A program made the position numbers and the translations under genes. From a virus: 42,730 nucleotides of DNA. Shown here piece by piece: positions 2,220-42,334 of the stretch. Numbering within the stretch: the stretch's first letter is position 1; each line of letters starts with the position of its first letter. Location: IMG/VR virus record IMGVR_UViG_3300032275_000007, positions 1-42,730 of that record; one strand, 5' to 3'. The notes below the pieces were generated by a model, which did no database searches, was not told the DNA's origin, and worked only from the letters and a program-made list of their open reading frames with translations.

Positions 2220-3169
2220 TCTGGATTAGTCCTTTCGATGTATTGTTCCTCGGTCATATATAACGGTAGGGTTGTACAATGCGTGATATACGCGCGGGCT
2301 TCTGGGTTTAGGTCTAGTGACCAAATGTATTTCAATGCTGAGTCATCCCTAGTTCTTAGTAGCCATAACGCTTCGGCCTCGGGTAGGATGTTCTGACTGA
2401 TGGCGGAGTAGCCCATGATAACCAGATTGGCTGCGGCAGACTCGCTTTGGATATCAACCAAAGCATTAAGTGCACCGGCAGGGCCACAAAGCTTTCCCTT
2501 GTACTTCTGAATACCTTTAACATTATCTGCTGAATCTCCCATAAGCATTTGACACCAGAAGAACTTAGTCCCGTGCCCGTCAATTTTGAGTTTCCCCGCA
2601 GGTGTTGTTGTCTCAGCTAACCAACCATACGTATCCGCAATAGAGCGCATACGTCCAGTCTTGATCTCGTACTTAACGCTAGGTGTGAGGTTCAAATCCT
2701 TATCCTCAGACCATACAACGTAGTTCTTATCTACGTGTGCGTCAATGATAATAGCATCATCGGCCTCAATATCCATACTAGCAATCACAGTCACCTGTGG
2801 ATCGTCAGCAAATAGGGTTGGGAAACTGTTACGTAGCTCCTGTAGTAGGGGTGGTTTTGTCTTAGCTGAACGGCTGAACTGGTAGACGTTGACCGCATTA
2901 AGCAATCTACGCCCGTTCTTCCAGCAACCCTCAGGTGTGGTATATACGCGAACGTGACTGGCTTTAGTGAGGTACATAGCCTCGTACACCTTTGTCACAG
3001 CTCGACGCTGAGCAGTCTCTAGCTTCGCACAATCGAATGTGGCGTGGTAGCAGATACTGTCAGCGTCGAGGAGGAGCACACGCCCCTCTACGGCATCATC
3101 AATCTTAGAAGCCTCTAGCACAGTCTCGACTGATGTACCGAAACTGGCTAAGAGGGCTACTGGGTTCAA
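2207..3169 (-). CDS. 5'-3' exonuclease (T7 gp6-like)
   Basis: This protein of up to 320 aa has the acidic motifs of phage flap/5'-3' exonucleases: LLLDADSICYH, DIEADDAIIIDA, WSEDKDLNLTP and GDSADNVKGIQKYKGK, which contains the helix-hairpin-helix region. In T7 such an enzyme degrades host DNA and removes RNA primers. The start is a TTG at 3169 that overlaps the stop of the preceding gene (TTGA). Two in-frame GTG codons further in, one with GAGG upstream just before LLLDAD, are alternatives, so the N-terminus is uncertain. The HNH gene overlaps its 3' end. Confidence 0.85.
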   Translation of the reverse strand: MNPVALLASFGTSVETVLEASKIDDAVEGRVLLLDADSICYHATFDCAKLETAQRRAVTKVYEAMYLTKASHVRVYTTPEGCWKNGRRLLNAVNVYQFSRSAKTKPPLLQELRNSFPTLFADDPQVTVIASMDIEADDAIIIDAHVDKNYVVWSEDKDLNLTPSVKYEIKTGRMRSIADTYGWLAETTTPAGKLKIDGHGTKFFWCQMLMGDSADNVKGIQKYKGKLCGPAGALNALVDIQSESAAANLVIMGYSAISQNILPEAEALWLLRTRDDSALKYIWSLDLNPEARAYITHCTTLPLYMTEEQYIERTNPEWQS

Positions 3170-4053
3170 ACCGGAGCTGCTACCGAAGCTACAAATGGTG
3201 CTTGTGGTTTCGCAATCTCAGGCATTACGGGTACGACAGCAGGCGCACTTACCATCACGCTCGGAGGCGTAGCCACGACCACACTTGCAGATGGGTTCAC
3301 CAGTGTGCTCGCTACGACGTTTGGGAGTGATGCCGCTACATGTACTGCTGGGGTAGCATCAACAGCTTTCTTCTGTGGTACTGGTAGCCCCGCCAGGACT
3401 AGCAGACTGTGCATCGGTGAGCCAAGGAAGTTCTCGGACTCTACGATATCCCTCTGCTGGAACTCGCTCAAGGAATCCCACATTAGCATGGTAGGGTTCT
3501 TGTACAGGAATAGCTTGAACAGCGTAGGTAATGTTGCTGGTACTGGATAAGGCTGTCCAGTCATCACATCCAGTGGTGCGCGGAATGATGCTAGATCAAG
3601 TTCATGACGTACTTTGTCACCAGCTTTCTTAGGTACAGAGTGCTTAATATTAACGATGTATGCTTCATTCAAGAGCTGTGCAAATGTTTTAGCCTTCTGT
3701 GACCAATTCAGTTTCTTGAACAGTAGGAAGGCTTTTGCTTTCTCGTTCTGGCTTAAGGCTAATGGCCATGTGCGGATGGTGATGGGTGTGCCATCTGGGT
3801 TGCTGTAGTTACGTCCACCAAGGTCATACAGTGCAAAGCCTAATCGGACGTGTGGTGCTGCTGGTTTTGCAACACCCTCGAAGGTCTGGATAATGTCACC
3901 GACCTCAACTACTTCCACCAATCGGGCGAAGGCTTCACCGGCTGGGGCTAAGGTGTAACCGCCACCACCGCCCTTAACGGCTTCGTTCATATCTGCGGAT
4001 TGTTCAGCATCTTGGTTGGCTAATGCTTGTAGTGCTAATAAATCTAAAGTCAT
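3166..4053 (-). CDS. Conserved-looking protein between polymerase and exonuclease; possible DNA-binding protein
   Basis: I place the start at the ATG at 4053, because AAGGA lies six bases upstream; an in-frame TTG at 4095 lacks this. The protein is 295 aa. Residues ~30-205 are a compact domain (GGGGGYTLAPAGEAFARLVE, then beta-rich segments). The last ~80 residues are a low-complexity Ala/Val/Pro/Ser tail. phiKMV-like phages have an uncharacterised gene in this place. Its position among replication genes suggests a single-stranded DNA-binding or replication accessory role, but I see no diagnostic motif. Confidence 0.75.
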   Translation of the reverse strand: MTLDLLALQALANQDAEQSADMNEAVKGGGGGYTLAPAGEAFARLVEVVEVGDIIQTFEGVAKPAAPHVRLGFALYDLGGRNYSNPDGTPITIRTWPLALSQNEKAKAFLLFKKLNWSQKAKTFAQLLNEAYIVNIKHSVPKKAGDKVRHELDLASFRAPLDVMTGQPYPVPATLPTLFKLFLYKNPTMLMWDSLSEFQQRDIVESENFLGSPMHSLLVLAGLPVPQKKAVDATPAVHVAASLPNVVASTLVNPSASVVVATPPSVMVSAPAVVPVMPEIAKPQAPFVASVAAPV

Positions 4054-4110
4054 AGTGGTTCCTTGGTTAGTGAATTCTAAAGTAGTTGGGTTCAATTACG
4101 TGGATAACTT

Positions 4111-4299
4111 CTAGCCCATAAATGTGTTACTAATCTGGGTGTGGCTAAATGTTCGCCACATGTGTATCGGTACAGAGTACATTACACCCTCCCACATATC
4201 TGGACTTATGTAGATATGTGTGGGTATTGGTAATCCGTTACGTCGGCTAAAAGTCCTTGTCGCGTGCACTTCCTGTTGTAGTTCTTCCGCGGTTAACAG
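4111..4299 (-). CDS. Small hidden gene after DNA polymerase (52-62 aa, non-ATG start)
   Basis: After the polymerase stop, a different frame stays open to a TAG at 4113-4111. It encodes a strongly protein-like sequence with AEELQQEVHATRTFSRRNG, then LPIPTHIYISPDMWEGVMYS. No ATG lies upstream of the conserved-looking part. A CTG at 4299 has GGAG eight bases upstream and overlaps the polymerase stop (CTGTTAA), giving 62 aa; a GTG at 4269 would give 52 aa with poor ribosome binding. A -1 frameshift from the polymerase end is a third possibility. Function unknown. It fills what would otherwise be a 240-bp gap. Confidence 0.55.
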   Translation of the reverse strand: MLTAEELQQEVHATRTFSRRNGLPIPTHIYISPDMWEGVMYSVPIHMWRTFSHTQISNTFMG

Positions 4300-6635
4300 T
4301 GTGTTTTCTCCATCATATTGGAACCAAACTCAGCAACGGCTGGGAATGGTGTGGTATCGTAGCGCCAAGCCTTATAGCCAGGCATTTTGTCACACATGTA
4401 CTTCGGGGTACTGGCCATAATCTCTGCGACCTGATTACCGGCCCAGCGTGCCCACTCTTCATTTACACAGTCTAGGTAGATAGCATCATGGACAGTGTTG
4501 ACACACAGCACGTTACCACCAAAGAAGTCATTAGCCACCAACCAGCGGATAACACGACCACAAGCCGTCTGTACAATGAAGGATGCTTCGCCTTGAATAA
4601 CATAATTAGCAACCTGTGTCTCCTTGTATTTCAGTATCTCTTGGCGAGCCTCCTTGTCCCATGCCATATACTGGCGGAAGGAATAGCATGTACCACCCTT
4701 GGCTTGGAAGTGTCCACGTCGGAAACTGGTGTAGTAACCACCGTCGTTAACCTCTTTGCACATAGGTGCTAGGATACCGGTACGCTCTACCTCGTCCATA
4801 ATGATGTACTTATAGCCTACTGCCTCTGGAAACAGTGAAGTCTCCAGTAATCGGAACTCAACAGCGGCTTCTAAGCTACAGCCTGACGCGTAGGATACAC
4901 CCTTATCAGATGCACCATACTGGAAGGCAAAGGATGGGCGCTTGATATCTGTACGCATCTCTTTGTAGTGCTTGTGGTCTGGATGCTCCTTGTTGTTACA
5001 CTTCTCCACCACTTCGTCGTAGTCTTCCCCAAGCTTTTCGGACAGTCGTAGACAGTGCATGTCCACGCCCATAGCTAGCTTTCCTAAGAGGTTGAAATCC
5101 CCAGCAATAGCTGCTAGGTCTACTACTTCGAGAGCTGAATAATCGACTTCAACAATTTGTCCATCTGCACCAAATCGGCTTGAGAACATCTGCTTGACAA
5201 GGCTAGTACCTTCTCGCGGCAAATTTTGAAGGTTTGGACAACTACTGGATAGTCGTGTTGTAACTGTCGATACACCATTAAGCGAATGGTTAACGATACC
5301 ATTAGGGCGTACGAACTGGAGCATTCCCTTAGTCTTGTGGATTGATCCATCGGCGTTGTATTCGTGGCTAATATAGTATGTGCCATTATCTTTATCCAGA
5401 TTGGTTAGTCGTTTCAGTGGAACTACCAATGGGCTGAACGCTGCTAAGGTATCCAGGCTATCCTTCCCTGTACTGTACACAGGTGTGCCGTCGAGAAGCG
5501 TTTGCTTCCCTTGGTACTCCGCATTCTTACCTGTGTACAGTTCTTGAACGTGCGGTGGTAGCTCTGCGATGTTGATTAGACCGGGGAATTCGTAGGTAGC
5601 CTCACCCCACTTCATCTTCAGCTCTTTGGTGTCTTCTCGGGTAATCTTAATCGTGCCTTTGTTCTTACCTGATTTATAGGTTACAAAGTTAACCCAGTAC
5701 TTGTCACAGTACTCTGCTTTAGTGAGTCGATTATCTCCATCACATAGCAATGCTGTCACTGGGTCAAGCAAGACCTTAACACCTTCCGTTGTAGTGATAC
5801 AATCCACTTTAACGTACGTTGGCGTGTCATAATGTACCTTATATCTATATGCAATTGGGCCGCCAAATAACCAAGCTGACATCATATGACCTGAGCCGAA
5901 GTTAAACTCCAGTTCATCTGGTTTATCTGCGGGGATTTGTTTCATAAGCTCTATCCGCAGAGCGTCGGCCTCGATTAGCTGTGCCTTGTGGTTCTTAGCT
6001 GCTACTTCACGGTTGATGTACAATCCTGTGTGGGTACATACCGCGTTGAACAGTAGGCTGTCCATACGTTCCCAGAAGCCATCAATCATACCGGCTTGTA
6101 CTAGGTGGGCGTACTGTGTGAAGCAAACTGTCCTTGTGTTCTCAATATCACCACTAGGGCCAGCTAAGTAGCGGCGTAGTAGTGCTGGTTCAATAGCACT
6201 GGTTAGAACGCCTTGCTCCCATAAGAGCTTCACCTCGTCGATCTTCTTAGTACCACCATATTTGATGGCACAGTCTTCAAGGGTAGCGTACTGTGTCTGC
6301 TGATGGGTTAATAGGTACTCTGCGTACTGGGTGCAGAATATCCGTCCACCACGCTTAATGAACGCAAGGAACTGCTCTCGCCTATGGGATAGGAGCCATT
6401 GGATTTCAAAGGTGGCGTTGTGTGCCACGAGGATATGTACGTCAGGGCCAAATACTGTATCAGCCCAGTTACTAGCGTTAGCTTCGTCTGCGTTGTTGTG
6501 ATACCAATCCTGAACGTCATTATTGTCTAATGCAAAGCCCACAGCTACGATGTAGTTCAATGGGCTGTGTGGTGAGGACTTACTTCCCAGGAATGGGTGT
6601 GTCTCTGTTTCAAAATCAAGAATTCCCCAAGTCAT
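4293..6635 (-). CDS. Family A DNA polymerase with 3'-5' exonuclease domain
   Basis: This 780-aa replicative polymerase is of the T7 gp5 type. The start is the ATG at 6635, with GGAGG seven bases upstream; an in-frame TTG at 6656 is not supported. The exonuclease domain has DFE (residues 7-9) and HNATFE (~72-77). Polymerase motif A is VDYSALE (D498), motif B is KRPSFAFQYG (~565-574) and motif C is VHDAIYLD (H716-D717). Motif C normally reads HDE in this family; here alanine replaces the glutamate. A hidden small gene overlaps its 3' end. In T7 the enzyme works with host thioredoxin; no thioredoxin-binding loop was identified here. Confidence 0.95.
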   Translation of the reverse strand: MTWGILDFETETHPFLGSKSSPHSPLNYIVAVGFALDNNDVQDWYHNNADEANASNWADTVFGPDVHILVAHNATFEIQWLLSHRREQFLAFIKRGGRIFCTQYAEYLLTHQQTQYATLEDCAIKYGGTKKIDEVKLLWEQGVLTSAIEPALLRRYLAGPSGDIENTRTVCFTQYAHLVQAGMIDGFWERMDSLLFNAVCTHTGLYINREVAAKNHKAQLIEADALRIELMKQIPADKPDELEFNFGSGHMMSAWLFGGPIAYRYKVHYDTPTYVKVDCITTTEGVKVLLDPVTALLCDGDNRLTKAEYCDKYWVNFVTYKSGKNKGTIKITREDTKELKMKWGEATYEFPGLINIAELPPHVQELYTGKNAEYQGKQTLLDGTPVYSTGKDSLDTLAAFSPLVVPLKRLTNLDKDNGTYYISHEYNADGSIHKTKGMLQFVRPNGIVNHSLNGVSTVTTRLSSSCPNLQNLPREGTSLVKQMFSSRFGADGQIVEVDYSALEVVDLAAIAGDFNLLGKLAMGVDMHCLRLSEKLGEDYDEVVEKCNNKEHPDHKHYKEMRTDIKRPSFAFQYGASDKGVSYASGCSLEAAVEFRLLETSLFPEAVGYKYIIMDEVERTGILAPMCKEVNDGGYYTSFRRGHFQAKGGTCYSFRQYMAWDKEARQEILKYKETQVANYVIQGEASFIVQTACGRVIRWLVANDFFGGNVLCVNTVHDAIYLDCVNEEWARWAGNQVAEIMASTPKYMCDKMPGYKAWRYDTTPFPAVAEFGSNMMEKTHC

Positions 6636-12434: not shown

Positions 12435-12854
12435 TTAGAAGTTTGATAGACGAGTGCGTTCCTGAGTACAGCTCAAGAACTTCTGTTCCCAAGGTAGATA
12501 CGTATAGTCTGGGGTACCAGGCTTTTGCTCGGTGTAGCGAGTCAGTCCTAGTAGTCTCGGGTAGTTCTTCCCTACCGTATGGAGGAACATCTGGCCGTAT
12601 GCAATCTCAATGGCTGATTCCTGCCCGTACGTCTGGAGTAGATTGCGGATACGTTGCCCAGTTAATTTATCACGGTGATTAGGCACGTACAAGCTGATCT
12701 CTGACTCACCAGCACACACTCCTTGGACAATAACAGGGCTACAGCCCATTAATACGAGGTCCTGCATAAGGTTGGTTGCCCGTTTCATGGCATACGCACC
12801 ATTAGGCTCTGATCCGGCTCTATGGGCACTGATGATTAACGCGGTTGCTATCAT
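12435..12854 (-). CDS. Possible S-adenosylmethionine lyase (T3 SAMase-like)
   Basis: This 139-aa protein starts at the ATG at 12854, which overlaps the stop of the preceding micropeptide (ATGA); a longer frame from 12893 is unlikely. By eye it shares the T3 SAMase layout: a first strand ending in SAHR, an Asn/Arg helix, a V-x-G strand, a GESEISLYV segment, and a late T-x-G strand. T3-type enzymes destroy SAM and so block type I restriction. An early position beside other small genes fits anti-restriction. Similarity is weak, so this is tentative. Confidence 0.5.
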   Translation of the reverse strand: MIATALIISAHRAGSEPNGAYAMKRATNLMQDLVLMGCSPVIVQGVCAGESEISLYVPNHRDKLTGQRIRNLLQTYGQESAIEIAYGQMFLHTVGKNYPRLLGLTRYTEQKPGTPDYTYLPWEQKFLSCTQERTRLSNF

Positions 12855-13600: not shown

Positions 13601-13625
13601 AAAAGCCCAGCGGTTAGGCTGGGCT
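13601..13625 (-). terminator. Intrinsic terminator after RNAP2
   Basis: On the minus strand AGCCCAGC-CTAACC-GCTGGGCT is a perfect 8-bp stem with a 6-base loop, followed by TTTTG. It lies 28 bases after the RNAP2 stop. It would end the short host-type transcript carrying the 60-aa gene and RNAP2, separating them from the later early genes. Confidence 0.8.
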
Positions 13626-13653: not shown

Positions 13654-15351
13654 TTACTCTTCAGTGATAAAGCATGGTATACGGTTAGGATTAAGCCAGC
13701 TAGAATCCTTCGGACTGATACCGATTAACTTGCGTAGCTCTGCCATCGCTGGGCTATTGGCTTGTCTGCACATCACTGTCCATGCACACTTAACGAACTC
13801 AGCGCGTAATGATGCTTTGATACTGAATGAATCATGAACAGCTACCGCAGTATGGCCAAGGTCATACCAATCTGCTAGCACTTCAGCTAGGAAGGCAGCA
13901 TCAAGTGATTGAATCATATTAGCGGCTGCTGATACGGTAGCATTCTTTACTTTAGGTAGTTTCTTTGCATCAGGTAATACTTTCGTTTGTGTACCAGTGT
14001 AATCACCAACAGCTACTCTATCTGTCTTCTGCTTGTAGCAGATAACGTTTGGCATGTATTGATTAGTCTTATCGTGTGTCTTGTACTTACCTTGCAATGA
14101 TTCCCAATAGTTCTGAGTCACTGTGTTACCGGCTGGTGTAGTCCAAGATAATTGTATACCCCTGGTGGCTAGTGCTGATGCTAGTGCTGATGCTAACTCT
14201 TTCACACGGTCTAGGCGGTCATATGATGCTAAGTGTGATACCACTTCATTAGCTACTTCTAGTGACACTGGCTCAGTGCGGGTAGCATTGATGGATGCTA
14301 GCTCTTCCATTAGGCGGGAGATAGACGCATCATCCCCAGCACCATAAGCTTTAGGCATTAAGTACATCTTAGCTAGCTTGCGGATTGGGCTGCTCTTCTC
14401 TGGTACTGGACAACCTGCTGCTAATGCGTAGACACTACCGTAGAAGTCATTAGGGGTATCAGTGAAATTAGTTAGGTTACATGCACGACCTAAGCTGATA
14501 TCACCTGTTAGGATACTGATATGCTGAGCAAAGGAGGCAGTAGCATCTAGCTTGATCTCATCATCATGCGACAGGCAAAGCTTGGCAATACCACCAGACT
14601 GCGGACTCATGAGGCCAGCTACGTAATACAACCGACCACGGAAGTCTGCCATTACATCAAAGCTAAATCCATCTTTGTTACCGTTATATGCGGCTACTAG
14701 TGATTTGTAGATAGCGTACTGTGTGTCATATTGTGCAATGTCTTCCTGTGATATTGCTGGCACCCACTCAGCATCACGGTTAATAATCTTATTCTGCATA
14801 AGCATCTCACGTACAATCTTAAGGCGCGATACATTAACGATGAATACGTGCTTGCTCATTGCAATAGCACCTAGATGATGTTTAGTACCTTCAGTGATGT
14901 AACGCATCTGAACAACTGACTCACCAACTGGCTTGCATAGGCTGGCTTTGTTACCCATGAACTTACCATCTACTACTGTATAAGAGGCAGGAATCACATC
15001 ATCACCATTAGTATTGGTGGTTGCTGGGGTGTAGTCTAACCATCCATCAATAACCATTGCTTTAACGATAGGACGGGCTAGGTTCCAACCATCAGTAGAC
15101 TGCTTAGGTTGGTCCACATCGTATGCGTCAGCGTAGTTCGTTACCATGTACTGCCCAATGATAGTGAAGATACGTGAAGCAAATAGATTAGTGGTTGATT
15201 GTTTAGCCATTACTGCGCGTATCAAAGCAAAGCAATCACTAGCAACAGTATCGCACTCAGTGTCTGACATATCTTCAAAGACCGAGGCCATAGAACCTTG
15301 CAGGTTAGTATCAAGAAGAGTGTAATACAGTGCGCTATTAGTGGTGGTCAT
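13654..15351 (-). CDS. Second, short single-subunit RNA polymerase (RNAP2)
   Basis: This 565-aa protein starts at the ATG at 15351, with AGGA upstream; an in-frame TTG at 15411 would overlap the 60-aa gene. It has all core motifs of T7-type polymerases: DFRGRLYY (D236), motif A LDATASFAQH (D269), motif B R324-x3-K328-x7-Y336-G with exact T7 spacing (R627/K631/Y639), and motif C VAVHDSFS (D507). A segment like the T7 specificity loop region (LSWTTPAGNT) is present. The part before DxRGR is ~185 residues shorter than in T7, and DxRGR to motif A is 33 residues instead of ~116. T7 H784 aligns with glutamine. It is most like a minimal N4-RNAPII-style enzyme in one chain. Expected role: DNA-dependent transcription early in infection. 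Confidence 0.85.
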   Translation of the reverse strand: MTTTNSALYYTLLDTNLQGSMASVFEDMSDTECDTVASDCFALIRAVMAKQSTTNLFASRIFTIIGQYMVTNYADAYDVDQPKQSTDGWNLARPIVKAMVIDGWLDYTPATTNTNGDDVIPASYTVVDGKFMGNKASLCKPVGESVVQMRYITEGTKHHLGAIAMSKHVFIVNVSRLKIVREMLMQNKIINRDAEWVPAISQEDIAQYDTQYAIYKSLVAAYNGNKDGFSFDVMADFRGRLYYVAGLMSPQSGGIAKLCLSHDDEIKLDATASFAQHISILTGDISLGRACNLTNFTDTPNDFYGSVYALAAGCPVPEKSSPIRKLAKMYLMPKAYGAGDDASISRLMEELASINATRTEPVSLEVANEVVSHLASYDRLDRVKELASALASALATRGIQLSWTTPAGNTVTQNYWESLQGKYKTHDKTNQYMPNVICYKQKTDRVAVGDYTGTQTKVLPDAKKLPKVKNATVSAAANMIQSLDAAFLAEVLADWYDLGHTAVAVHDSFSIKASLRAEFVKCAWTVMCRQANSPAMAELRKLIGISPKDSSWLNPNRIPCFITEE

Positions 15352-15394
15352 GACGATAGTTCCTAGTGATTGAGAAGAGATACAGTGGAGTGGA

Positions 15395-15577
15395 TTATAC
15401 AGACTTAGCAATCAGGCTGTCAACATATTCTTCAGCTACTAATAATAGATCAGCAGCGTACACACCAACAGGCTCATAGATACTACCATCTAGCACTGTA
15501 CAACCATTAACAGCTAGTAGACGGTGGAACTCTTGCCATACTAACTCACCGCGCATTGATTGGATCATTGTACTCAT
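15395..15577 (-). CDS. Hypothetical protein, 60 aa, first gene of the RNAP2 operon
   Basis: The ATG at 15577 has AAGGGAG eight bases upstream, among the best ribosome binding sites in the window. The protein (MSTMIQSMRGELVWQEFHRL...) is small, acidic and probably helical at its end (ADLLLVAEEYVDSLIAKSV). It lies 38 bases after the -10 of a sigma70-like promoter and 43 bases before RNAP2. Co-expression with RNAP2 suggests a polymerase partner or early host-takeover factor; this is inference. Confidence 0.75.
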   Translation of the reverse strand: MSTMIQSMRGELVWQEFHRLLAVNGCTVLDGSIYEPVGVYAADLLLVAEEYVDSLIAKSV

Positions 15578-15614
15578 AACCTTTACTCCCTTGCGTTACT
15601 GATTCGATGTAGTG

Positions 15615-15643
15615 ATTATAGTCTAGTAGGATATACTAAGCAA
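15615..15643 (-). promoter_or_regulatory. Sigma70-like promoter for the RNAP2 operon
   Basis: On the minus strand TTGCTT (15643-15638) and a perfect TATAAT (15620-15615) are 17 bases apart. Only half of the -35 matches consensus, but the -10 and spacing are ideal. It points at the 60-aa gene and RNAP2 and would let host RNA polymerase transcribe them on entry. Confidence 0.65.
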
Positions 15644-15661
15644 CATATATCTAGTTCAATA

Positions 15662-15779
15662 CCCATTGTATATTCCTATGATGCTAATAGTCATAGGCTA
15701 TAGTATATTACTGTGATTGGTTAATAGGTTACTAGCGTAGTACTGTTGTATATTACTATGCTGGTTAATAGTTTAGTAG
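15662..15779. repeat. Degenerate AT-rich direct repeats
   Basis: GTATATTACTGTGATTGGTT followed by AATAG (from 15703) recurs as GTATATTACTATGCTGGTTA plus ATAG (from 15748), a 45-base period over about 33 bases. A third, shorter copy of the GTATATT core starts at 15668, 35 bases before the first. On the minus strand each contains AATATAC followed by a purine-ended AYRG-like tail. They lie just upstream of the RNAP2 promoter. Confidence 0.6.
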
Positions 15780-15982
15780 CTATAGGATAGACCACCCTCA
15801 TGCAGACCCGCAGTTAGCCGTGGTATAAGGATAGATAACAGTGAGGTCGCAGGACTAGAGTAGTAGTTCATGCGCAGTGACAACCAGTCCATGCAGTACA
15901 GTAGCTACATTATATATAAGGATAGAGATACCAAGCCGATAGGTGCTATAGGTTGGAGTCGAAGACTCAGCAGAGTGGGACG

Positions 15983-16310
15983 GAGATACGTAGAGGAGAT
16001 ACGTAGTATCGTAGCGTAGTATCGTAGTGGATTAACAGAGATACGTAGTAGTATCGTAGTCAACTGCTAGAGATACACAAGGATAAGAAAAGAAGTATAC
16101 ATACGCGGAGGAAAAGAAGTAGTACCCCTCTCCTACACACTCACACACTCCCATACCTCCCAACACCGCTCATACCTCCAACACTCTGATATACATACCA
16201 CCCACGGAGGTGATACTGCGGAGATACGTAGTATCGTAGTAGTATTGCCGGAGTAGGTCCGTAGTAGTCTAGCTGAGCTGCGTAGTAGCTTCGTAGTAGG
16301 ACCGTAGTAG
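15983..16310. repeat. Short repeat array (GAGATACGTAG / GTATCGTAG / CGTAGTAG)
   Basis: GAGATACGTAG occurs at 15983, 15996, 16038 and 16221. GTATCGTAG occurs at 16006, 16019, 16051 and 16231. CGTAGTAG occurs at 16235, 16260, 16281, 16292 and 16303, with a further copy at 16510 and a variant at 16520. The first two types often sit together, forming GATAC-GTA-GTATC dyads. The spacing is irregular, so this is not a CRISPR. It looks like a set of protein-binding sites (iteron-like). Confidence 0.75.
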
Positions 16311-16540
16311 CTTCCCAGCAGCTTCTCAGTAGCTGTACAGGGAAGAGGGGGCTACGGGGGAGATATGACTAGCCTGAGGGGAGAGACACCCTCGCGTTAA
16401 TATAATAAATTTTAGGTTCCTATATAACTCACATATAGACTCACATAGAACATATACAGACACACACATAGACAAATTAGCCCCACCCCGTAGAGGTAGA
16501 GCTATTGTCCGTAGTAGTCCGTAGTAATGATTAGAGACCT

Positions 16541-16574
16541 GACCGAAGGTCTACTTCTAGTCCGACCTTCGGTC
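16541..16574 (-). other. Perfect 11-bp hairpin downstream of the candidate phage promoter
   Basis: GACCGAAGGTC and GACCTTCGGTC form an 11-bp stem with a 12-base loop. There is no U-run on either strand. It lies about 45 bases downstream of the promoter motif at 16617-16635, so any transcript from that promoter would carry it near its 5' end. It could be a processing, stabilising or termination structure. Confidence 0.55.
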
Positions 16575-16616
16575 ACTTCTCCCCTCCCTTATATCCGGGC
16601 CTTATTTCACTCCGTT

Positions 16617-16635
16617 TCAATAAGTGTTACTTCAT
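16617..16635 (-). promoter_or_regulatory. Candidate phage promoter motif, copy 3
   Basis: The minus strand reads ATGAAGTAACACTTATTGA, matching the copies at 19945-19963 (identical over 19 bases) and 39879-39897 (one change, C to T). The core ACACTTAT recalls the CACTATA core of T7/SP6 promoters. It lies after the last late gene and before the control region, the place of the T7 phiOR promoter near the genome end. Confidence 0.6.
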
Positions 16636-16646
16636 AATACATTGGC

Positions 16647-16655
16647 TGTGGATAA
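16647..16655 (-). promoter_or_regulatory. Consensus DnaA box
   Basis: The minus strand reads TTATCCACA, a perfect match to the bacterial DnaA box TTATNCACA, 12 bases upstream of the candidate promoter. A near match (TTATCCACG) lies near 4100. One 9-base site can arise by chance, but its place at the edge of the control region is suggestive. Confidence 0.4.
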
Positions 16656-16660
16656 CTTAT

Positions 16661-16783
16661 TTAGTACCGTAATACAGCTCTAGTCGCTACAGTGACACCA
16701 ATTGCATCAACCCAGTCACCTGAATTGGTAGTCCACACCTGCTCTGATAGGTTGTATCGTACACATGGCGTATTACTAGGTGA
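16661..16783 (-). other. In-frame open extension after the tail-protein stop
   Basis: Directly after the TAA of the tail protein, the same frame stays open for 40 codons to another TAA. It reads like protein (EQVWTTNSGDWVDAIGVTVA). It has no good start of its own. It could be the remnant of a longer C-terminus cut by a nonsense change, or a small gene with a weak GTG start. Confidence 0.4.
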
Positions 16784-19020: not shown

Positions 19021-20867
19021 TGAAGTCTCCTAGCATTGATACGGGCTAACGTGCCCCGCGATTTACGTTTATTTGTTTCGTAACCCATAGGGTTCTCCTT
19101 GAACTTCCGAACATCCTCTTCTTCCCGCTTGGCTTGCAACAGCTTATCGTCTGCTGCCACTAAATGCCCAAGCTGTAAACAAGCGGCTGCAAAGGCATCC
19201 GCTCTATCATCGGATACTAACGAGTCTCTATCATAGGTCATATTACTAATCTGGTAGAAGAAGCTCATTTGTGTCTGACGTTCCCTGCTATGCTTTTGCA
19301 TATACTTCGCATCGTCCTCTATAGCTCGACGATGAATTACAATCTTGTGCCTACGGGACAGTGGGCCTACCGTATCAATAACACGACGCTCTTTCTGACC
19401 TTTGGCGTAGAAGCCAGTCACACCAATACCTGTGATCTTATCCTTCTCCATCTGACCTAGAAACAGTGCCTCTACAGTACCATGACCCATATTAGACTCA
19501 ATCTGGATATCATTGATCTCTAGCTCTACACACAGGTTAATGATCTCGCGCATATTCTCCTCAGAGACACCACCAATCAAACCACCCACAGTCAAGCCAT
19601 GTAGATAACTGTTAGACGCGCCAACTGCTGCAAATGCTACCTCATCACCACCTTTACCGGCAGGGTCTACTACCATGACCTTGTGGACGTACTTCACACG
19701 TTCTTGGCTGCTATTAGCAACCCTGTACATGATCGCACCCTCTAATGCCTTGTGTTCTGATACATCGTACCTATGACGAGCCTCAGCCGTATACTGTACT
19801 GTTTCTGGTACGGTTATGTGTGCTTCGTCGATATCTAGTACCATGAAGTCTGATAACTTGATCTTAGTGCGTAGCGCATCAGATAAGGTAGTATCTAGCA
19901 TGTACTGCAATGCAAACCCTTCCTCACCAAAGTCTAGCTCTTTCTCAATAAGTGTTACTTCATCAAACATCACTGGATCAGTAGGTCTACCTAGCTTGCC
20001 TGACAAACCACCACCAGTCGTGATACTAGGGTCTGATAGTATCTGATCTACTACATAAGGTGCTAATGTACCTACAGCGTACTTCTCAGTCTGCTCAGCA
20101 TTGGGGAATCTACCCGGCCAGATACGGATATGATACCCACGGCCTGGTAATGATTTATAGATAGAATCCTTTGTCTGTGGTGTACCTAGATACAACGTTT
20201 CACCCTTGCTATTGATAGCTGCAAACTCTTTACTGATTAGTAGTAGAGTCTCCCGCATAGTCTGGGTCATAGCATTCTTCTGGGATTCAATATCGTCTGG
20301 GATTAATAGGTCTGCACGATTACCCTGTAAATTCGCAGTGATACCCATACAGCTAACACTCGCTGATTTAGATATCTCGTGCAGATCACAATGTACGTCG
20401 TACTTCTCAAACGAGCTACGATCCCCCCGGGCCTTGTCAGGGCGTAGGTAGCAGAGTAAATGCCACTGCTCAATCAACCGGATAATCATGATAGCCACAT
20501 CTGATGCTTGCTTCTCACCTGCGGATACCACAAGTATCTTATGGTTATTGTGCTGTACAAGGCTCCACACAGCATACAAAGCTGCTAGGGTTGATTTAGC
20601 CTCCCCACGCTGAGCCTGCACCATCTTCTTCTTACCATAGGACTGGTCAGCCATATAGTCAGCAATATCAAGCTGCATAGGGCTAATAGGGAACCCTAGT
20701 ACACGCATACCAACCGCAGCGAACTCTGGGAAAGATGTAAAGGTACTAGCCACCATCATGGCAATTTCGTCCCGTACATCCTTCGGCATACTCTCTGGGT
20801 GGTCATCCCACTCCCTTGTCCGGGGTGAGATCATCTGCAAACGACGCAGTGTTTTCTCTGATACCAT
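19017..20867 (-). CDS. Large terminase subunit
   Basis: This 616-aa packaging motor is of the T7 gp19 type. Walker A lies in QRGEAKST (86-93), Walker B near LLIPDDIE, and the RNase H-like nuclease has VMVVDPAGKGGDE, IQIESNMG and SDDRADAFAAA. It translocates DNA into the prohead and cuts concatemers. It follows the small terminase with a 51-bp gap. A copy of the candidate phage promoter motif lies inside the gene (19945-19963). The micropeptide start overlaps its stop. Confidence 0.95.
   Translation of the reverse strand: MVSEKTLRRLQMISPRTREWDDHPESMPKDVRDEIAMMVASTFTSFPEFAAVGMRVLGFPISPMQLDIADYMADQSYGKKKMVQAQRGEAKSTLAALYAVWSLVQHNNHKILVVSAGEKQASDVAIMIIRLIEQWHLLCYLRPDKARGDRSSFEKYDVHCDLHEISKSASVSCMGITANLQGNRADLLIPDDIESQKNAMTQTMRETLLLISKEFAAINSKGETLYLGTPQTKDSIYKSLPGRGYHIRIWPGRFPNAEQTEKYAVGTLAPYVVDQILSDPSITTGGGLSGKLGRPTDPVMFDEVTLIEKELDFGEEGFALQYMLDTTLSDALRTKIKLSDFMVLDIDEAHITVPETVQYTAEARHRYDVSEHKALEGAIMYRVANSSQERVKYVHKVMVVDPAGKGGDEVAFAAVGASNSYLHGLTVGGLIGGVSEENMREIINLCVELEINDIQIESNMGHGTVEALFLGQMEKDKITGIGVTGFYAKGQKERRVIDTVGPLSRRHKIVIHRRAIEDDAKYMQKHSRERQTQMSFFYQISNMTYDRDSLVSDDRADAFAAACLQLGHLVAADDKLLQAKREEEDVRKFKENPMGYETNKRKSRGTLARINARRLQ
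19945..19963 (-). promoter_or_regulatory. Candidate phage promoter motif, copy 2 (inside terminase)
   Basis: The minus strand reads ATGAAGTAACACTTATTGA, identical over 19 bases to the copy at 16617-16635. It is inside the large terminase gene, about 0.9 kb before the lysis cassette, and could raise transcription of lysis and last tail genes. Conservation inside a coding region argues for selection on the DNA motif. Confidence 0.55.
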
Positions 20868-28636: not shown

Positions 28637-31372
28637 TTAGTTGATTACTGTGGATATACCCTTTAGGAGCATAGCCTGCTTTGCTGACCCAGATTTCTTA
28701 TACACCTTTGAGCGACGTACCAGTTCCTGTGCTTCGTCTGTCTTGCCTAGATTAGCTAACTTAATAGCATTACTATAGACCGTACCACCCTCAATACCAC
28801 CATGATAGATCATATTGGATAGTCCGGTGTACGCGGTCACAACGCTAGGCTTCACAGTCTGCCCGTTTAAGGGTGGTAGTCCTGCTGCCTGCCCTACTGT
28901 CTGTGTTGCAATGGCGTGGGGGCGCATTACCTGATCTACCCAGATAGCTACCTTAGCATCATACCCTTGAGCTTTCGATATAGCTAAATGTGCCCGTGGG
29001 TAGCCTTTGGTATGTACCCCATAACCTATGGTAGTACCCGGAGACCCATCAGTGCTCTTAGGATTATCAAGCCAACCCTCATTAGCCATAATACTAGCCA
29101 CAATGGTTGTACCTGCTGAGGTGTTACCGTACTGTCGAACAGCGTCCATAGGGATAGCTCTAGGCTGACCTTGTACCTGCACGTACATACCTGTAGCAGT
29201 CTGCTGAACATCCAGACCGGCTGCGTAGGTAATAGCCTTTGTGGTAGCCGGACCTTCATGTAGTAAACCCCGTGAAGTCTCATGCGCTTTACGTACAACC
29301 TCAATAACTTTTGCGAAGTCCTTTGGGGTGGGGTTGAACAGTATCTTATTAGTGCCCCCACCCCAGTCAATCTTCATATAACTCATAGACTGATCGGGGT
29401 TGTACACAAGCATGATATCCTTCGCTGATGTTTTATGATCTAACGCTAACTTATCCCGTAGTAGTGTATCTGCCTTGGCGATGTACTCGTCATTCACAGC
29501 ACCACCACCGGCAGCCTCAAGCCCTTTACGGAATACAGGGGCCATTGGAATCATACCGTTAGCACCCTGCACAAATAACTTGTACTGCTGCATAACCTTC
29601 AAGGCCGTCGCACCATCTGGAATATCCTTCCAATTCTGGTGCAACATCTCCTTATTGTCGGTGTACATACGGGTGGCTACCAAAGCCATAGTCCCACGGG
29701 CTGCATCACTGGCTTGGGAGCCTAGCTCTGCACCTGCTGTGGACCTACCAAGAGAACCAAACCAGCTACTCTTGAACAGGGTGTCATCGAACTTCACTGA
29801 TGAGGCACCACCCTTAGCCATTAACGCAGTCTTCGAGGACTCAGCCATAGCCTTGATCTTCGGTATATCTCTGGACACATCAAACGGCCCTGTATTGGTT
29901 TTCAGGTACGATAGCAATACTGACTTGTACTCTGCCGGCGCACCGTCAATGATAGCCGTAAAGCTATCCGACCGTCCCTTCAATAGAGCCTCCTGCGCAT
30001 TACCTACAGCGGCAGATATACCTGCTAAGGCATTGGCTGGACTGACATTAGGGTCTTGCAACTCCTTAGCTGTACGTTCCCATAGATTAGCACCAGCACC
30101 CCAAAGTAATTTACTACCCTCGGTAACTGCTACTGGATTGGTCTTCTGGATACCGTACTGGATTAGCTGTTGTGCTGCCTTTGGTACATCACCACCGGCT
30201 GCTTTCGTAAACGCCTGCATCTGCAATGTACTTGCCTTTTCATCAGTCATGCCACCGGTAATACGCATACCTAGATCACCGCTAGCAATCCCAGTATCGT
30301 TCTGTGTTGCCCAGCCCCTATCCCGTAAAGCACGTAGCTTAGACGCGGTGCTGGCTACAAAGATATCATCTGCGATATCTACGCGGTTCTTCATAAGCTG
30401 ATCTAACGCGATAGTAACGTCCTGCTCTACGTTACCCCCGCGGGCTACAGAGGACTCAATATTGTCTACTGTCTCACCAATACCTACACGCATTGTATCT
30501 CCCGCAGCTTTCTTGCGAGACTCCATTGCTGTAAATATCTTGATCTGCTCCTCAGGTTTAATTACAGTACCAGCCTCCGAGGATAGGAACGCATTAATGT
30601 GCTTCAAGCGTTCCTTACCATCGGGGGTGCTAGCATCCACACGGGCTACACCCGATAGAATACTAGCACCCATCTTCTGCCCAGCTAGGTGATCGGCATT
30701 GTCTGGATCAATAGTGCTGGACGTTGCCTTCAGTAGCTTAGCCGTGGATTCTAACATCGCCGGGATATTCTCCGCAGCTTGCTCAGGGTTAGCAATAACG
30801 TCGGCAGCCTTCGCTTGGAAGGTTAAATCTGCTGACTTCGCCTGACCAATAGCATGACTCTGCTGAGCCTTGACGTATGATGCCTGAACACCGGCTGCAC
30901 TCTGCATAGCGTTATCAGACACTTGCTTCAATACGTCCGGCGGTAATGAGCCATCCGCACCCTTGTCGGCTAGGTTTGCTAGGTATGGATTAACGAACTC
31001 CTTTGTGAAGTCCTCTAATGTCGTACCCTTTGCTACGTTAGCACGTACAGCCTGTGCTGCTGTATTCTCAAACGCAGTACCATCCTGGGCCGCTGTGGAG
31101 ATATTCACCCCAGCCTTGTAGGCATCCTCAGTCCACCAAGACTGCTCACGCAATGCCCCAGCGTTCTGATCCATAATACCCTGCATACGGGCTGAATTCT
31201 GCTTGGCCTGAATAGCACCTAGCACACCTTCCTTAGCAGATGGTACAAAGCCTGATAGGAAGTCCATAGAGCCTTGTACTGGCCCTTGGTACTGCATATT
31301 CTCTGTATTCTGCGCACCTGCTGAGAAACCACCGGATTGTACGCCAGTGGTTTGTACTTTATCAATTGGCAT
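28637..31372 (-). CDS. Internal virion protein with C-terminal lysozyme domain (phiKMV gp36-like)
   Basis: This 911-aa protein has about 750 residues of helical core protein and then a T4-lysozyme-like domain. ANEGWLDNP supplies the catalytic glutamate (E765) and TTIGYGVHTKG the following strand. The later AYTGLSNMIYHGG segment also fits. In phiKMV the equivalent protein carries a heat-stable peptidoglycan hydrolase that opens the cell wall during DNA entry, and order and layout match here. AGGAG lies five bases before the ATG. It is distinct from the endolysin gene. Confidence 0.88.
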   Translation of the reverse strand: MPIDKVQTTGVQSGGFSAGAQNTENMQYQGPVQGSMDFLSGFVPSAKEGVLGAIQAKQNSARMQGIMDQNAGALREQSWWTEDAYKAGVNISTAAQDGTAFENTAAQAVRANVAKGTTLEDFTKEFVNPYLANLADKGADGSLPPDVLKQVSDNAMQSAAGVQASYVKAQQSHAIGQAKSADLTFQAKAADVIANPEQAAENIPAMLESTAKLLKATSSTIDPDNADHLAGQKMGASILSGVARVDASTPDGKERLKHINAFLSSEAGTVIKPEEQIKIFTAMESRKKAAGDTMRVGIGETVDNIESSVARGGNVEQDVTIALDQLMKNRVDIADDIFVASTASKLRALRDRGWATQNDTGIASGDLGMRITGGMTDEKASTLQMQAFTKAAGGDVPKAAQQLIQYGIQKTNPVAVTEGSKLLWGAGANLWERTAKELQDPNVSPANALAGISAAVGNAQEALLKGRSDSFTAIIDGAPAEYKSVLLSYLKTNTGPFDVSRDIPKIKAMAESSKTALMAKGGASSVKFDDTLFKSSWFGSLGRSTAGAELGSQASDAARGTMALVATRMYTDNKEMLHQNWKDIPDGATALKVMQQYKLFVQGANGMIPMAPVFRKGLEAAGGGAVNDEYIAKADTLLRDKLALDHKTSAKDIMLVYNPDQSMSYMKIDWGGGTNKILFNPTPKDFAKVIEVVRKAHETSRGLLHEGPATTKAITYAAGLDVQQTATGMYVQVQGQPRAIPMDAVRQYGNTSAGTTIVASIMANEGWLDNPKSTDGSPGTTIGYGVHTKGYPRAHLAISKAQGYDAKVAIWVDQVMRPHAIATQTVGQAAGLPPLNGQTVKPSVVTAYTGLSNMIYHGGIEGGTVYSNAIKLANLGKTDEAQELVRRSKVYKKSGSAKQAMLLKGISTVIN

Positions 31373-39878: not shown

Positions 39879-39898
39879 TCAATAAGTATTACTTCATA
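39879..39898 (-). promoter_or_regulatory. Candidate phage promoter motif, copy 1 (late genes)
   Basis: The minus strand reads TATGAAGTAATACTTATTGA, directly after the RNAP1 stop and before all head and tail genes. It differs from the other two copies by one base in 19. This is where a T7-like phage needs a strong class III promoter. The following ~155 bases hold no convincing gene; a 22-codon frame at 39782-39850 lacks a usable ribosome site. Confidence 0.68.
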
Positions 39899-42334
39899 TC
39901 AACAAAACATAAATGGGGAATTTAGGACGTTTTTCAGATCAAAATCACCGATCACAGGACGCTCACAATCCATCGTGGTTGAGAAGTTATTTAGCTCCAA
40001 TAGCATCCCCAGCCCACGCTCCTCGTAAAGCTCTAGGAAGGTCTGGCGTATCGCTAAGTGCATATCATCAACGTCATTTGGGTGGCAGGCGAAGGAATCG
40101 TGGATTGGGAGGATAGGGAAATCACATCGGTTAATTACGGCCCATAGGTGGGCGCTATCAAGAGAATGGACGACGTTAGGGTTAATACCACTTAGCGCCT
40201 TACTTCTATCGAACACACCGGTAGGGAATCGTAGCAGTAGTGCAGCAAGCCCCATAGATCGTACGGCTAGTTGCTTCTCTACCATAACGTCTACCCAGCC
40301 TACTACAGGCATACCAATAGGACTAATCCAGCGCATAGGTGTCGGTTGTCCATCAATATCTACACAGTGCCTAGCTAGCTTGATGATGTAACGCATAGCT
40401 TCATCCGCTGCCGGTACTGCTTCCCGTACACCGGTACGTAAGGTCTTAGCTACTACAACACCAAGTCTACGTAGGCTAAATAGAACCTTACCATCTGTGT
40501 CTAGGATAGGTTCCATGTCTCTAGATACCATGTCAGCCACTACATAATCCATAGTGGATTGTAGCGTACTGCCGTATACGTAGGTCATTACCGGCCCTTT
40601 AGCCATGCTGCGGGGGATTGGGAACTCAGACCAATAGCTTTTGACTACTGCATCAATATCTTCCGATAGCTTTAATTTATCGGCTATAGAAGCAACGTAC
40701 CCGTAAATATCCGACTTCTGATCCATTCCGTTATATACCAGATTGGTGTGGGCTGCGCCGATTGGATCACGTAGCATTGCAGATAGATGTTGCAAGCCTG
40801 AGCATGTAGCATCCATCGCTACTGGGACGTGTACAAGCGTCGTGGTATCGTTCATGTAATCACGGAGGGCTATGCCAGCCTGTAATAGCGTGAACGCTGT
40901 ATCGTTCTCTGGTGGCTGTACTGCAAGGGGATTGTCAATGAAGTCTAGGATCATCTCCCAGTTATCATCTGTCCACTGTGCCTTGATTTCGGGTAGGTGC
41001 TTATCGAACCCGCAGCAATTTGCTACGTGAACCTTCAACCAGAACGCGCCTCTTTCTGTCAAGGGCTTACCGTCAGCGAATTCATAGCACGCCTTAATCG
41101 CATCACAATCTTGCATATTCACTGACGGGCGGAAATAACCTCGGCCACGCCAGTCTGCGTACATAGGGAACCACAGCTTCGATCTACCCTGATAGGTGCG
41201 TAGGTACTTGATCTTGTTTGATAAGCCCTTCACCATACCGATACGTGTCTTGCCAATGGTGTACCAGTCACGCATTTTACCGCACCAGTCTTCAAACTGC
41301 CGTAGCTCGGACTCAGTACCATCAGCTTTATCCCAGTCTTCGTGCATCGGGAATTCAGGTCTTGGTGGGCCATCTCGCAAAGGTAATCCAAGAATACCCA
41401 TGTTGCCATCCATAATGGCCTGTACGCAATTGAGTACAGGTACATTGATGCGGTATGCCACAGACTGTGCCTTGCTCATAGCGGCCCGCATAGGGTCTGC
41501 TACGGGCTTTGACAACTCTTCCTTTACCCATTCACGATATTTGCTAGGCATACCACGGAAACCAACCATCGGTGCTCGCACCTGCAACCCCTCGGATAAA
41601 TAGCCACCATCATCAAAAGCCGTCCATGGCTTCGGTGGGACGATCATGGGAGGGTAGATCATCCGGCAATTGAACTCTGTCACCATCGGGTCCAGGATGG
41701 CCTGCATTTGGGGTGTGAGGTACGCTGCGTGGATCACTTGATTACGTGTGTTCGTGCCCTTACGCCACTCGAAGAATTCTAATGGGTATAACGCCGCCAA
41801 AACGATCCTAGCTACACCTAATCTGTACTCCGTAGACCACGGCTCGTACTCAGGTACACACTCCTGTAGAGCTTTGCTATATGATCTGTTGATAACGGTA
41901 ACATCCTTTACCCTACGTTTGACCAAGTCTTTTACAGTCATCTCCAGATACACTGGGTTCTTCATCAAAACATACTGAACATATACTTCTGATTCTAGTG
42001 TCTTACCTAACTGCTGTAGTACATCCTGTGGCGTTTGCTCACCGAGGGCTAGGCCCGTAGCGCGGATGACTGTTCTAATCGCTACAACCGCAAGGATATC
42101 TGGTTTGACGATGCGGATCAGCGAGCGGTACTTACCACCTAAACCCGCTGTCCTCTCATTAAGCATATCTTCAATAGCCTTAGTAGCTTCTTCAAACAAG
42201 GATGATACAATGCGTCGAGCAGGCCCGGTATCCGCAGCCCTACCTCGCTCAAATGAGTCAAGGAGGCTGCGTTGTGTCCGAGCAATGCTCTCATTACTAT
42301 ACTGCTGTTCTAACTCAAGCTGCTCAACGCTCAT
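39899..42334 (-). CDS. T7-type single-subunit RNA polymerase (RNAP1)
   Basis: This 811-aa full-length enzyme has DWRGRGYF (D394), motif A MDATCSGLQHLSAMLRD (D508), motif B R575-x3-K579-x7-Y587-G, SLDSAHL with the preceding histidine kept (VVHSLDSAHL, ~721-730), and motif C PIHDSFACH (D746). Motif spacing is that of T7 RNAP (DxRGR to motif A is 114 residues). The N-terminal ~390 residues should hold the promoter-binding domain. Its place just before the structural genes is the phiKMV arrangement. GAGGG precedes the ATG at 42334. It most likely transcribes late genes from the repeated motif. Confidence 0.97.
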   Translation of the reverse strand: MSVEQLELEQQYSNESIARTQRSLLDSFERGRAADTGPARRIVSSLFEEATKAIEDMLNERTAGLGGKYRSLIRIVKPDILAVVAIRTVIRATGLALGEQTPQDVLQQLGKTLESEVYVQYVLMKNPVYLEMTVKDLVKRRVKDVTVINRSYSKALQECVPEYEPWSTEYRLGVARIVLAALYPLEFFEWRKGTNTRNQVIHAAYLTPQMQAILDPMVTEFNCRMIYPPMIVPPKPWTAFDDGGYLSEGLQVRAPMVGFRGMPSKYREWVKEELSKPVADPMRAAMSKAQSVAYRINVPVLNCVQAIMDGNMGILGLPLRDGPPRPEFPMHEDWDKADGTESELRQFEDWCGKMRDWYTIGKTRIGMVKGLSNKIKYLRTYQGRSKLWFPMYADWRGRGYFRPSVNMQDCDAIKACYEFADGKPLTERGAFWLKVHVANCCGFDKHLPEIKAQWTDDNWEMILDFIDNPLAVQPPENDTAFTLLQAGIALRDYMNDTTTLVHVPVAMDATCSGLQHLSAMLRDPIGAAHTNLVYNGMDQKSDIYGYVASIADKLKLSEDIDAVVKSYWSEFPIPRSMAKGPVMTYVYGSTLQSTMDYVVADMVSRDMEPILDTDGKVLFSLRRLGVVVAKTLRTGVREAVPAADEAMRYIIKLARHCVDIDGQPTPMRWISPIGMPVVGWVDVMVEKQLAVRSMGLAALLLRFPTGVFDRSKALSGINPNVVHSLDSAHLWAVINRCDFPILPIHDSFACHPNDVDDMHLAIRQTFLELYEERGLGMLLELNNFSTTMDCERPVIGDFDLKNVLNSPFMFC

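Follow-up and report, generated by a model that had tools for sequence, protein, structure and literature searches.

Two single-subunit RNA polymerase genes in one phage genome

The window analysed here is the complete 42,730-nt virus record IMGVR_UViG_3300032275_000007. Its first 221 bases recur as its last 221, so the assembly is closed and represents a whole genome of 42.7 kb. Nearly the entire genome is coded on the minus strand, and the gene set is that of a phiKMV/KP34-type autographivirus, with genes for a primase, a DnaB-like helicase, a ligase, a family-A DNA polymerase, an exonuclease, endonuclease VII and a metallophosphoesterase. The window carries two genes for single-subunit RNA polymerases (ssRNAPs), the smaller of which we call the mini:

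13654..15351, minus strand: mini-ssRNAP gene (protein P0002), 565 aa from its ATG; open frame, profile matches and two homologues
39899..42334, minus strand: standard phiKMV-type RNA polymerase, 811 aa; Pfam and PHROG profile matches

The larger enzyme, already recognised in an earlier sequence-only reading of this DNA, was confirmed and assigned to the minus strand. It adjoins the structural, terminase and lysis genes and is 42–44% identical to the enzymes of Acinetobacter friunaviruses. The 565-aa open frame claimed by the same reading is present; its strand, which had been left unstated, is minus, and the plus-strand reading of the interval is full of stops. The profile search that this reading had called for placed the mini in the ssRNAP family, with matches to Pfam PF00940 (RNA_pol; E=3.9e-11, 42.9 bits with a cut-off of 22) and to the RNA polymerase family phrog_414 (E=8.7e-27), and a weak match to phrog_2051 (E 8e-10). 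A PDB profile search with the mini profile returned mitochondrial RNAPs and N4 RNAP2. Judged by its sequence, the mini is a genuine single-subunit RNA polymerase homologue, additional to the 811-aa enzyme.

With the capsid protein as bait, 56 related loci were gathered, and 44 records were searched for the mini. The sole other carrier among them (G044, 45.1 kb) encodes a full-length homologue of 568 aa, 41–44% identical to the mini and matched by PF00940 with 52.9 bits, together with a standard RNAP of 806 aa. A third mini was found by a pattern scan for ADFRGRxYY in a record (G045) whose contig end cuts the frame after 348 aa. Pairwise identities with these two further IMG/VR phages, which come from different samples, are 42–44%, and the catalytic motifs are invariant between the mini and both homologues; chance is thereby excluded. 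Between the window and G044, both enzymes have diverged to about the same degree (identity: mini 42%, standard RNAP 42%). In the mini comparison, a differing codon was seen at 121 of the 208 columns with an identical amino acid and degenerate codons, indicating purifying selection on the protein. Synteny is retained in all three mini phages, in which the lysis/terminase end is followed by the mini as first large early gene; mini-less relatives, for example G004, have small ORFs only at the corresponding place.

No further members were recovered from IMG/VR with P0002 alone, with a two-sequence mini profile or with a DNA pattern for LMPKAYGxGD. INPHARED searches gave no mini and only distant true RNAPs, and no mini match was obtained in PLSDB or in the GTDB genomes scanned. 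There is no close mini homologue among annotated phage records, and a literature search on two ssRNAPs in autographiviruses found no precedent or description. To our knowledge, T7-like phages have been described with one RNAP, and two ssRNAPs in one phage are known to us only from the N4-like phages. The earlier statement that a single RNAP defines the T7-like phages held for every other relative examined but failed for G044, the one complete mini-bearing relative. The sequence-only reading is upheld in its central proposal: in addition to its standard RNAP, this autographivirus encodes another single-chain ssRNAP, which is divergent and has its catalytic centre complete. As a separate observation, the standard RNAP gene of record G040 (locus L051, 4148–6104) is split into two frames (4148–4657 and 5433–6104), perhaps by an intron or an inserted endonuclease.

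Catalytic core, ribose pocket and predicted fold

We aligned the minis with about 196 ssRNAP frames from IMG/VR, and the following residues were assigned to their T7 RNAP positions:

14623..14646, minus strand: DFRGRLYY, residues 236–243; R238 and R240 correspond to T7 R423 and R425
14545..14547, minus strand: motif A catalytic Asp, D269 (T7 D537)
14530..14532, minus strand: F274, at the T7 G542 position (2'-OH pocket / steric gate)
14344..14382, minus strand: motif B, R324, K328 and Y336 (T7 R627, K631 and Y639)
13909..13911, minus strand: Q481, at the T7 H784 position
13831..13836, minus strand: motif C, H506-D507 (T7 H811-D812)

The DFRGRLYY element and motifs A, B and C lie at the residues given in the sequence-only reading, with exact T7 spacing in motif B (K328 at +4 and Y336 at +12 from R324), and all catalytic residues are invariant across the minis and about 190 other ssRNAPs. 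The canonical ribose pocket formed by Gly542 and His784 is absent from the mini, whereas the standard RNAP has both residues. At the T7 G542 position, Phe was found in 3/3 minis, and the 172 other readable ssRNAPs have Gly (171) or Ala (1). The Ala, the sole non-mini exception, belongs to a full-length ssRNAP in another locus (L084, 3304–5883; DASSSAFQHF). At the T7 H784 position, the two complete minis have Gln and the other ssRNAPs His; the non-His exceptions outside the minis are two split-gene rows that look misaligned. This column is partly biased, since 116 survey rows had been collected by a pattern containing that very His; the other 80 rows agree (77 His, 2 misaligned, 1 gap). The alignment is gap-free at D269–Q276 and N478–D484, so both assignments are secure. 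According to a 2024 review, G542 avoids a clash with the 2'-OH and H784 contacts it; both show high conservation among phage-like RNAPs, and the residue at that place is bulkier in DNA polymerases (PMC11617373).

In the alignment, the palm insertion of about 80 residues is gone from all three minis: R240 and D269 are spaced by 28 residues in 3/3 minis versus 106–114 in 167 other ssRNAPs. The N-terminal part of the mini comprises 235 residues compared with a median of 394 in other ssRNAPs, and the Pfam search gave a match to the RPOL_N domain (PF14700) in the standard RNAP and none in the mini. The Y336–D484 interval is equal to that of other ssRNAPs or longer. Structure prediction, also called for earlier, was performed with AlphaFold2. 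The model built with 30 aligned ssRNAPs reached a pLDDT of 78.7 and a pTM of 0.73, with about 90 in the core, and that from the three minis alone failed (pLDDT 42); the confident fold model thus leans on the wider ssRNAP family alignment. Given that alignment, which includes standard RNAPs, a palm and fingers are predicted. Foldseek ranked only mitochondrial and T7 RNAPs among the best matches of the model (E 2e-13), and its BFVD matches were phage RNAPs. A beta-hairpin stretch ahead of motif C (strands 416–424 and 436–446) is predicted where the T7 specificity loop sits, but with a pLDDT of about 50.

The phylogeny suggested by the sequence-only reading put the minis on a deep separate branch but left their placement undecided, as AU tests did not reject joining them with the clade of the resident RNAP (p 0.50) or with the ssRNAP of locus L080 (p 0.68). 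The deep branch speaks against a recent duplication of the resident RNAP as the origin of the mini, but the AU tests are indecisive on this point.

We then compared the mini with known polymerases. T7-type RNAPs (PF00940, phrog_414; including the phiKMV/KP34 type) share with it DxRGR, motifs A, B and C, the motif B spacing, all catalytic residues and the predicted palm and fingers. They measure about 800–880 aa, whereas the mini has 565 aa, a shorter N-terminus, no palm insertion and the changes G542 to F and H784 to Q, and is encoded early, in addition to a standard RNAP. N4 RNAPII (gp15+gp16, Schitoviridae) is likewise a small phage ssRNAP in an early position with motifs A–C, and the weak phrog_2051 match of the mini counts as a further likeness. 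In the N4-type gp15/gp16 pair read in locus L227, however, the enzyme consists of two chains split between DxRGR and the palm insertion, whereas the mini is one 565-aa chain, and gp16 keeps the palm insertion, the Gly (DATSSGLQ) and the His (THSID), all three of which the mini lacks. Chain structure and pocket residues rule out the identification of the mini as an N4 RNAPII. The N4 virion RNA polymerase has the ssRNAP fold in common with the mini but is an injected virion protein of ~3,500 residues with a palm insertion (PMC12633501), whereas the mini lies outside the virion genes with only 565 aa. The Schitoviridae arrangement of RNAPII plus virion RNAP differs from that of mini plus standard RNAP. 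Mitochondrial RNAPs (POLRMT, Rpo41), which rank best for the mini both in Foldseek and in the PDB profile search, are much larger, carry N-terminal extensions and show 11–14% identity over the structural alignment. Family A DNA polymerases of the Pol I type resemble the mini in their right-hand fold and bulky ribose-gate residue; they also have no palm insertion, and Pol I carries a Tyr at the Y336 position. The DNA_pol_A profile did not match the mini, however, and motif A of the mini (DxTASFAQ) is not of the Pol I type, with Phe as the gate residue in place of Glu.

Predicted expression signals and the probable genome end

The following features were predicted or located around the two polymerase genes:

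16617..16636, minus strand: likely standard-RNAP promoter, copy 3, after the tail-fibre gene
16379..16408, minus strand: conserved 30-nt element TTATTATATTNANGCGAGGGTGTCTCTCCC next to the terminal repeat
15395..15577, minus strand: 60-aa ORF ahead of the mini gene, with its 3' end overlapped by the sigma-70 promoter
15394..15423, minus strand: predicted host sigma-70 promoter, TTGACA-18-TATAAT, 12/12 consensus
13604..13625, minus strand: predicted intrinsic terminator directly after the mini gene
19945..19964, minus strand: likely standard-RNAP promoter, copy 2, inside the terminase gene, before the lysis genes
39879..39898, minus strand: likely standard-RNAP promoter, copy 1 (TATGAAGTAATACTTATTGA), before the late genes

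The −10 element of the predicted sigma-70 promoter ends 43 bp before the mini ATG, and no other site in the window scores above 10/12. In G044, too, a comparable terminator lies behind the mini gene, but a comparable perfect sigma-70 promoter was not found ahead of it. The first-gene position of the mini and its own predicted host-type promoter and terminator bear out the earlier assignment to the first operon. No promoter family tied to the mini was found in the early/middle region of the window, and an Rfam scan of the leader region returned nothing.

Three copies of a 20-bp motif, TATGAAGTAAYACTTATTGA, were found (39898, 19964 and 16636), all in late positions, and among candidate promoters of the standard RNAP this motif is the strongest. 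In phiKMV-like phages, early transcription normally relies on host RNAP and late transcription on the phage ssRNAP (PMC7552054).

Other repeats were also noted. A 1.2-kb non-coding stretch upstream of the early genes (window 15578–16783) is rich in CTACTACG / GATACTACGTATCTCC repeats and contains three spaced repeats at about 15762, 15717 and 15682 with the consensus AKCAYAGKAATATACWAYRG; these could be origin iterons or early promoters. In G044, CACAGGTATCAGTGGGNNTCAACT is repeated at 30766, in the early region, and at 12609, just after the standard RNAP gene, and is a candidate promoter of that phage. A weak repeat, AAMCMAACTACTTTAKAAYT, occurs at window positions 4092 and 39761, before a 309-aa gene (3166–4095) and the first late genes, respectively; it falls within the range given by shuffles, and no promoter is claimed.

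The element TTATTATATTNANGCGAGGGTGTCTCTCCC is nearly identical in 3/3 mini phages. It recurs in Slopekvirinae, among them Pseudomonas phage Ep4, whose annotated direct terminal repeat has the element at its edge. As a mini-specific promoter, this element 1 kb upstream of the mini was ruled out by its presence in the mini-less G004 and by the repeat edge in Ep4. The element probably marks the genome end, in which case no other large gene lies nearer to that end than the mini. It is shared by distant phiKMV/KP34-like phages beside the terminal repeat and is probably a packaging or end-processing signal.

Possible roles of the mini polymerase

The reading we favour, with a probability of about 0.48, is that the mini belongs to the T7/mitochondrial ssRNAP superfamily as an additional, pared-down and catalytically competent enzyme, made immediately early. 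Its gene would enter the cell ahead of all other large genes and be transcribed by host RNA polymerase from the consensus sigma-70 promoter in a unit closed by the terminator. The mini would then use phage DNA as its template, ahead of the takeover by the standard RNAP, whose likely promoters are all late. The order would run from host RNAP to the mini polymerase to the late RNAP, and the product would most likely be RNA from early/middle phage DNA, made by an enzyme whose ribose pocket would no longer select NTPs as other ssRNAPs do. Homology, the complete catalytic residues, the conserved loss of the palm insertion, the conserved F274 and Q481, position and synteny are established; promoter, terminator and fold are sequence predictions, and activity, timing, template and product are inferred. 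The sigma-70 promoter, the terminator and the late-only likely promoters of the standard RNAP make an immediate-early, host-transcribed, active mini that works ahead of the late RNAP most likely. The reading also draws on the family membership, the fold model and its matches, the invariant catalytic residues, the two syntenic homologues under purifying selection, the predicted hairpin stretch, the length of the Y336–D484 interval and the usual phiKMV order of host RNAP before phage ssRNAP. The two-polymerase transcription cascade put forward in the sequence-only reading is plausible, but no promoter family of the mini's own was found, and F274 and Q481, which replace the residues that accept the 2'-OH and had gone unremarked in that reading, point away from ordinary transcription and NTP use. 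The small N-terminal part without a recognisable RPOL_N domain, the lack of a matching sigma-70 promoter ahead of the G044 mini, the dependence of the good fold model on standard RNAPs in its alignment and the existence of mini-less close relatives also count against the favoured reading.

The same pocket residues raise a serious rival possibility, which we hold to be less probable, that the mini is a DNA-synthesising or mixed-sugar polymerase, with a Phe steric gate, Gln for His and the RNAP-specific palm insertion lost. Instead of messages, such an enzyme may produce DNA or chimeric primers or strands at an early stage of infection, serving to start replication, fill in ends or evade defence. 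It would fit with F274 in 3/3 and Q481 in 2/2 minis at positions where nearly every other ssRNAP, N4 RNAPII and the resident RNAP among them, has Gly and His. It would also fit with the palm insertion missing from every mini, and with the published roles of G542 and H784 and the bulkier residue of DNA polymerases (PMC11617373). However, the T7 RNAP variant G542V/H772R/H784S still uses natural NTPs for transcription (PMC4551944), so a larger residue there is no proof of dNTP use. Moreover, Y336, the main ribose sensor, is kept, and the genome already encodes its own family-A DNA polymerase along with a primase and a DnaB-like helicase. We know of no member of the ssRNAP superfamily that is a DNA polymerase.

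It is unlikely that the mini acts by interference, binding DNA or another polymerase with its own polymerase activity weak or dispensable, whereby host or resident phage transcription may be blocked or the mini may serve as a decoy. Early position is typical of host-takeover genes, the thumb and N-terminal parts are reduced, and the mini has an accessory distribution in the group; a binder, however, would have no need of the residues for catalysis and NTP binding in motifs A, B and C, which are all strictly kept at about 42% overall identity. The single copy in the window and the few relatives in collections might raise the suspicion that the mini is a chimera of the assembly, or a decayed copy of the resident RNAP that was inserted recently. 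We regard this as refuted by the intact, syntenic homologues on two other contigs from other samples; codon-level purifying selection, the intact 565-aa frame with its promoter and terminator, and the deep separate branch, without close similarity to the resident RNAP, also stand against it.

With all catalytic residues in place and a rebuilt ribose pocket, the mini constitutes a natural experiment on the sugar choice of RNA and DNA polymerases, which has so far been studied mainly through T7 RNAP mutants. A mini that transcribes would extend the phiKMV-type programme by a third stage. A mini that uses dNTPs would be an RNAP turned into a DNA polymerase and made the first expressed enzyme of a T7-like phage. 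Either way, it offers an ssRNAP of about 565 residues that can be directly expressed and assayed.
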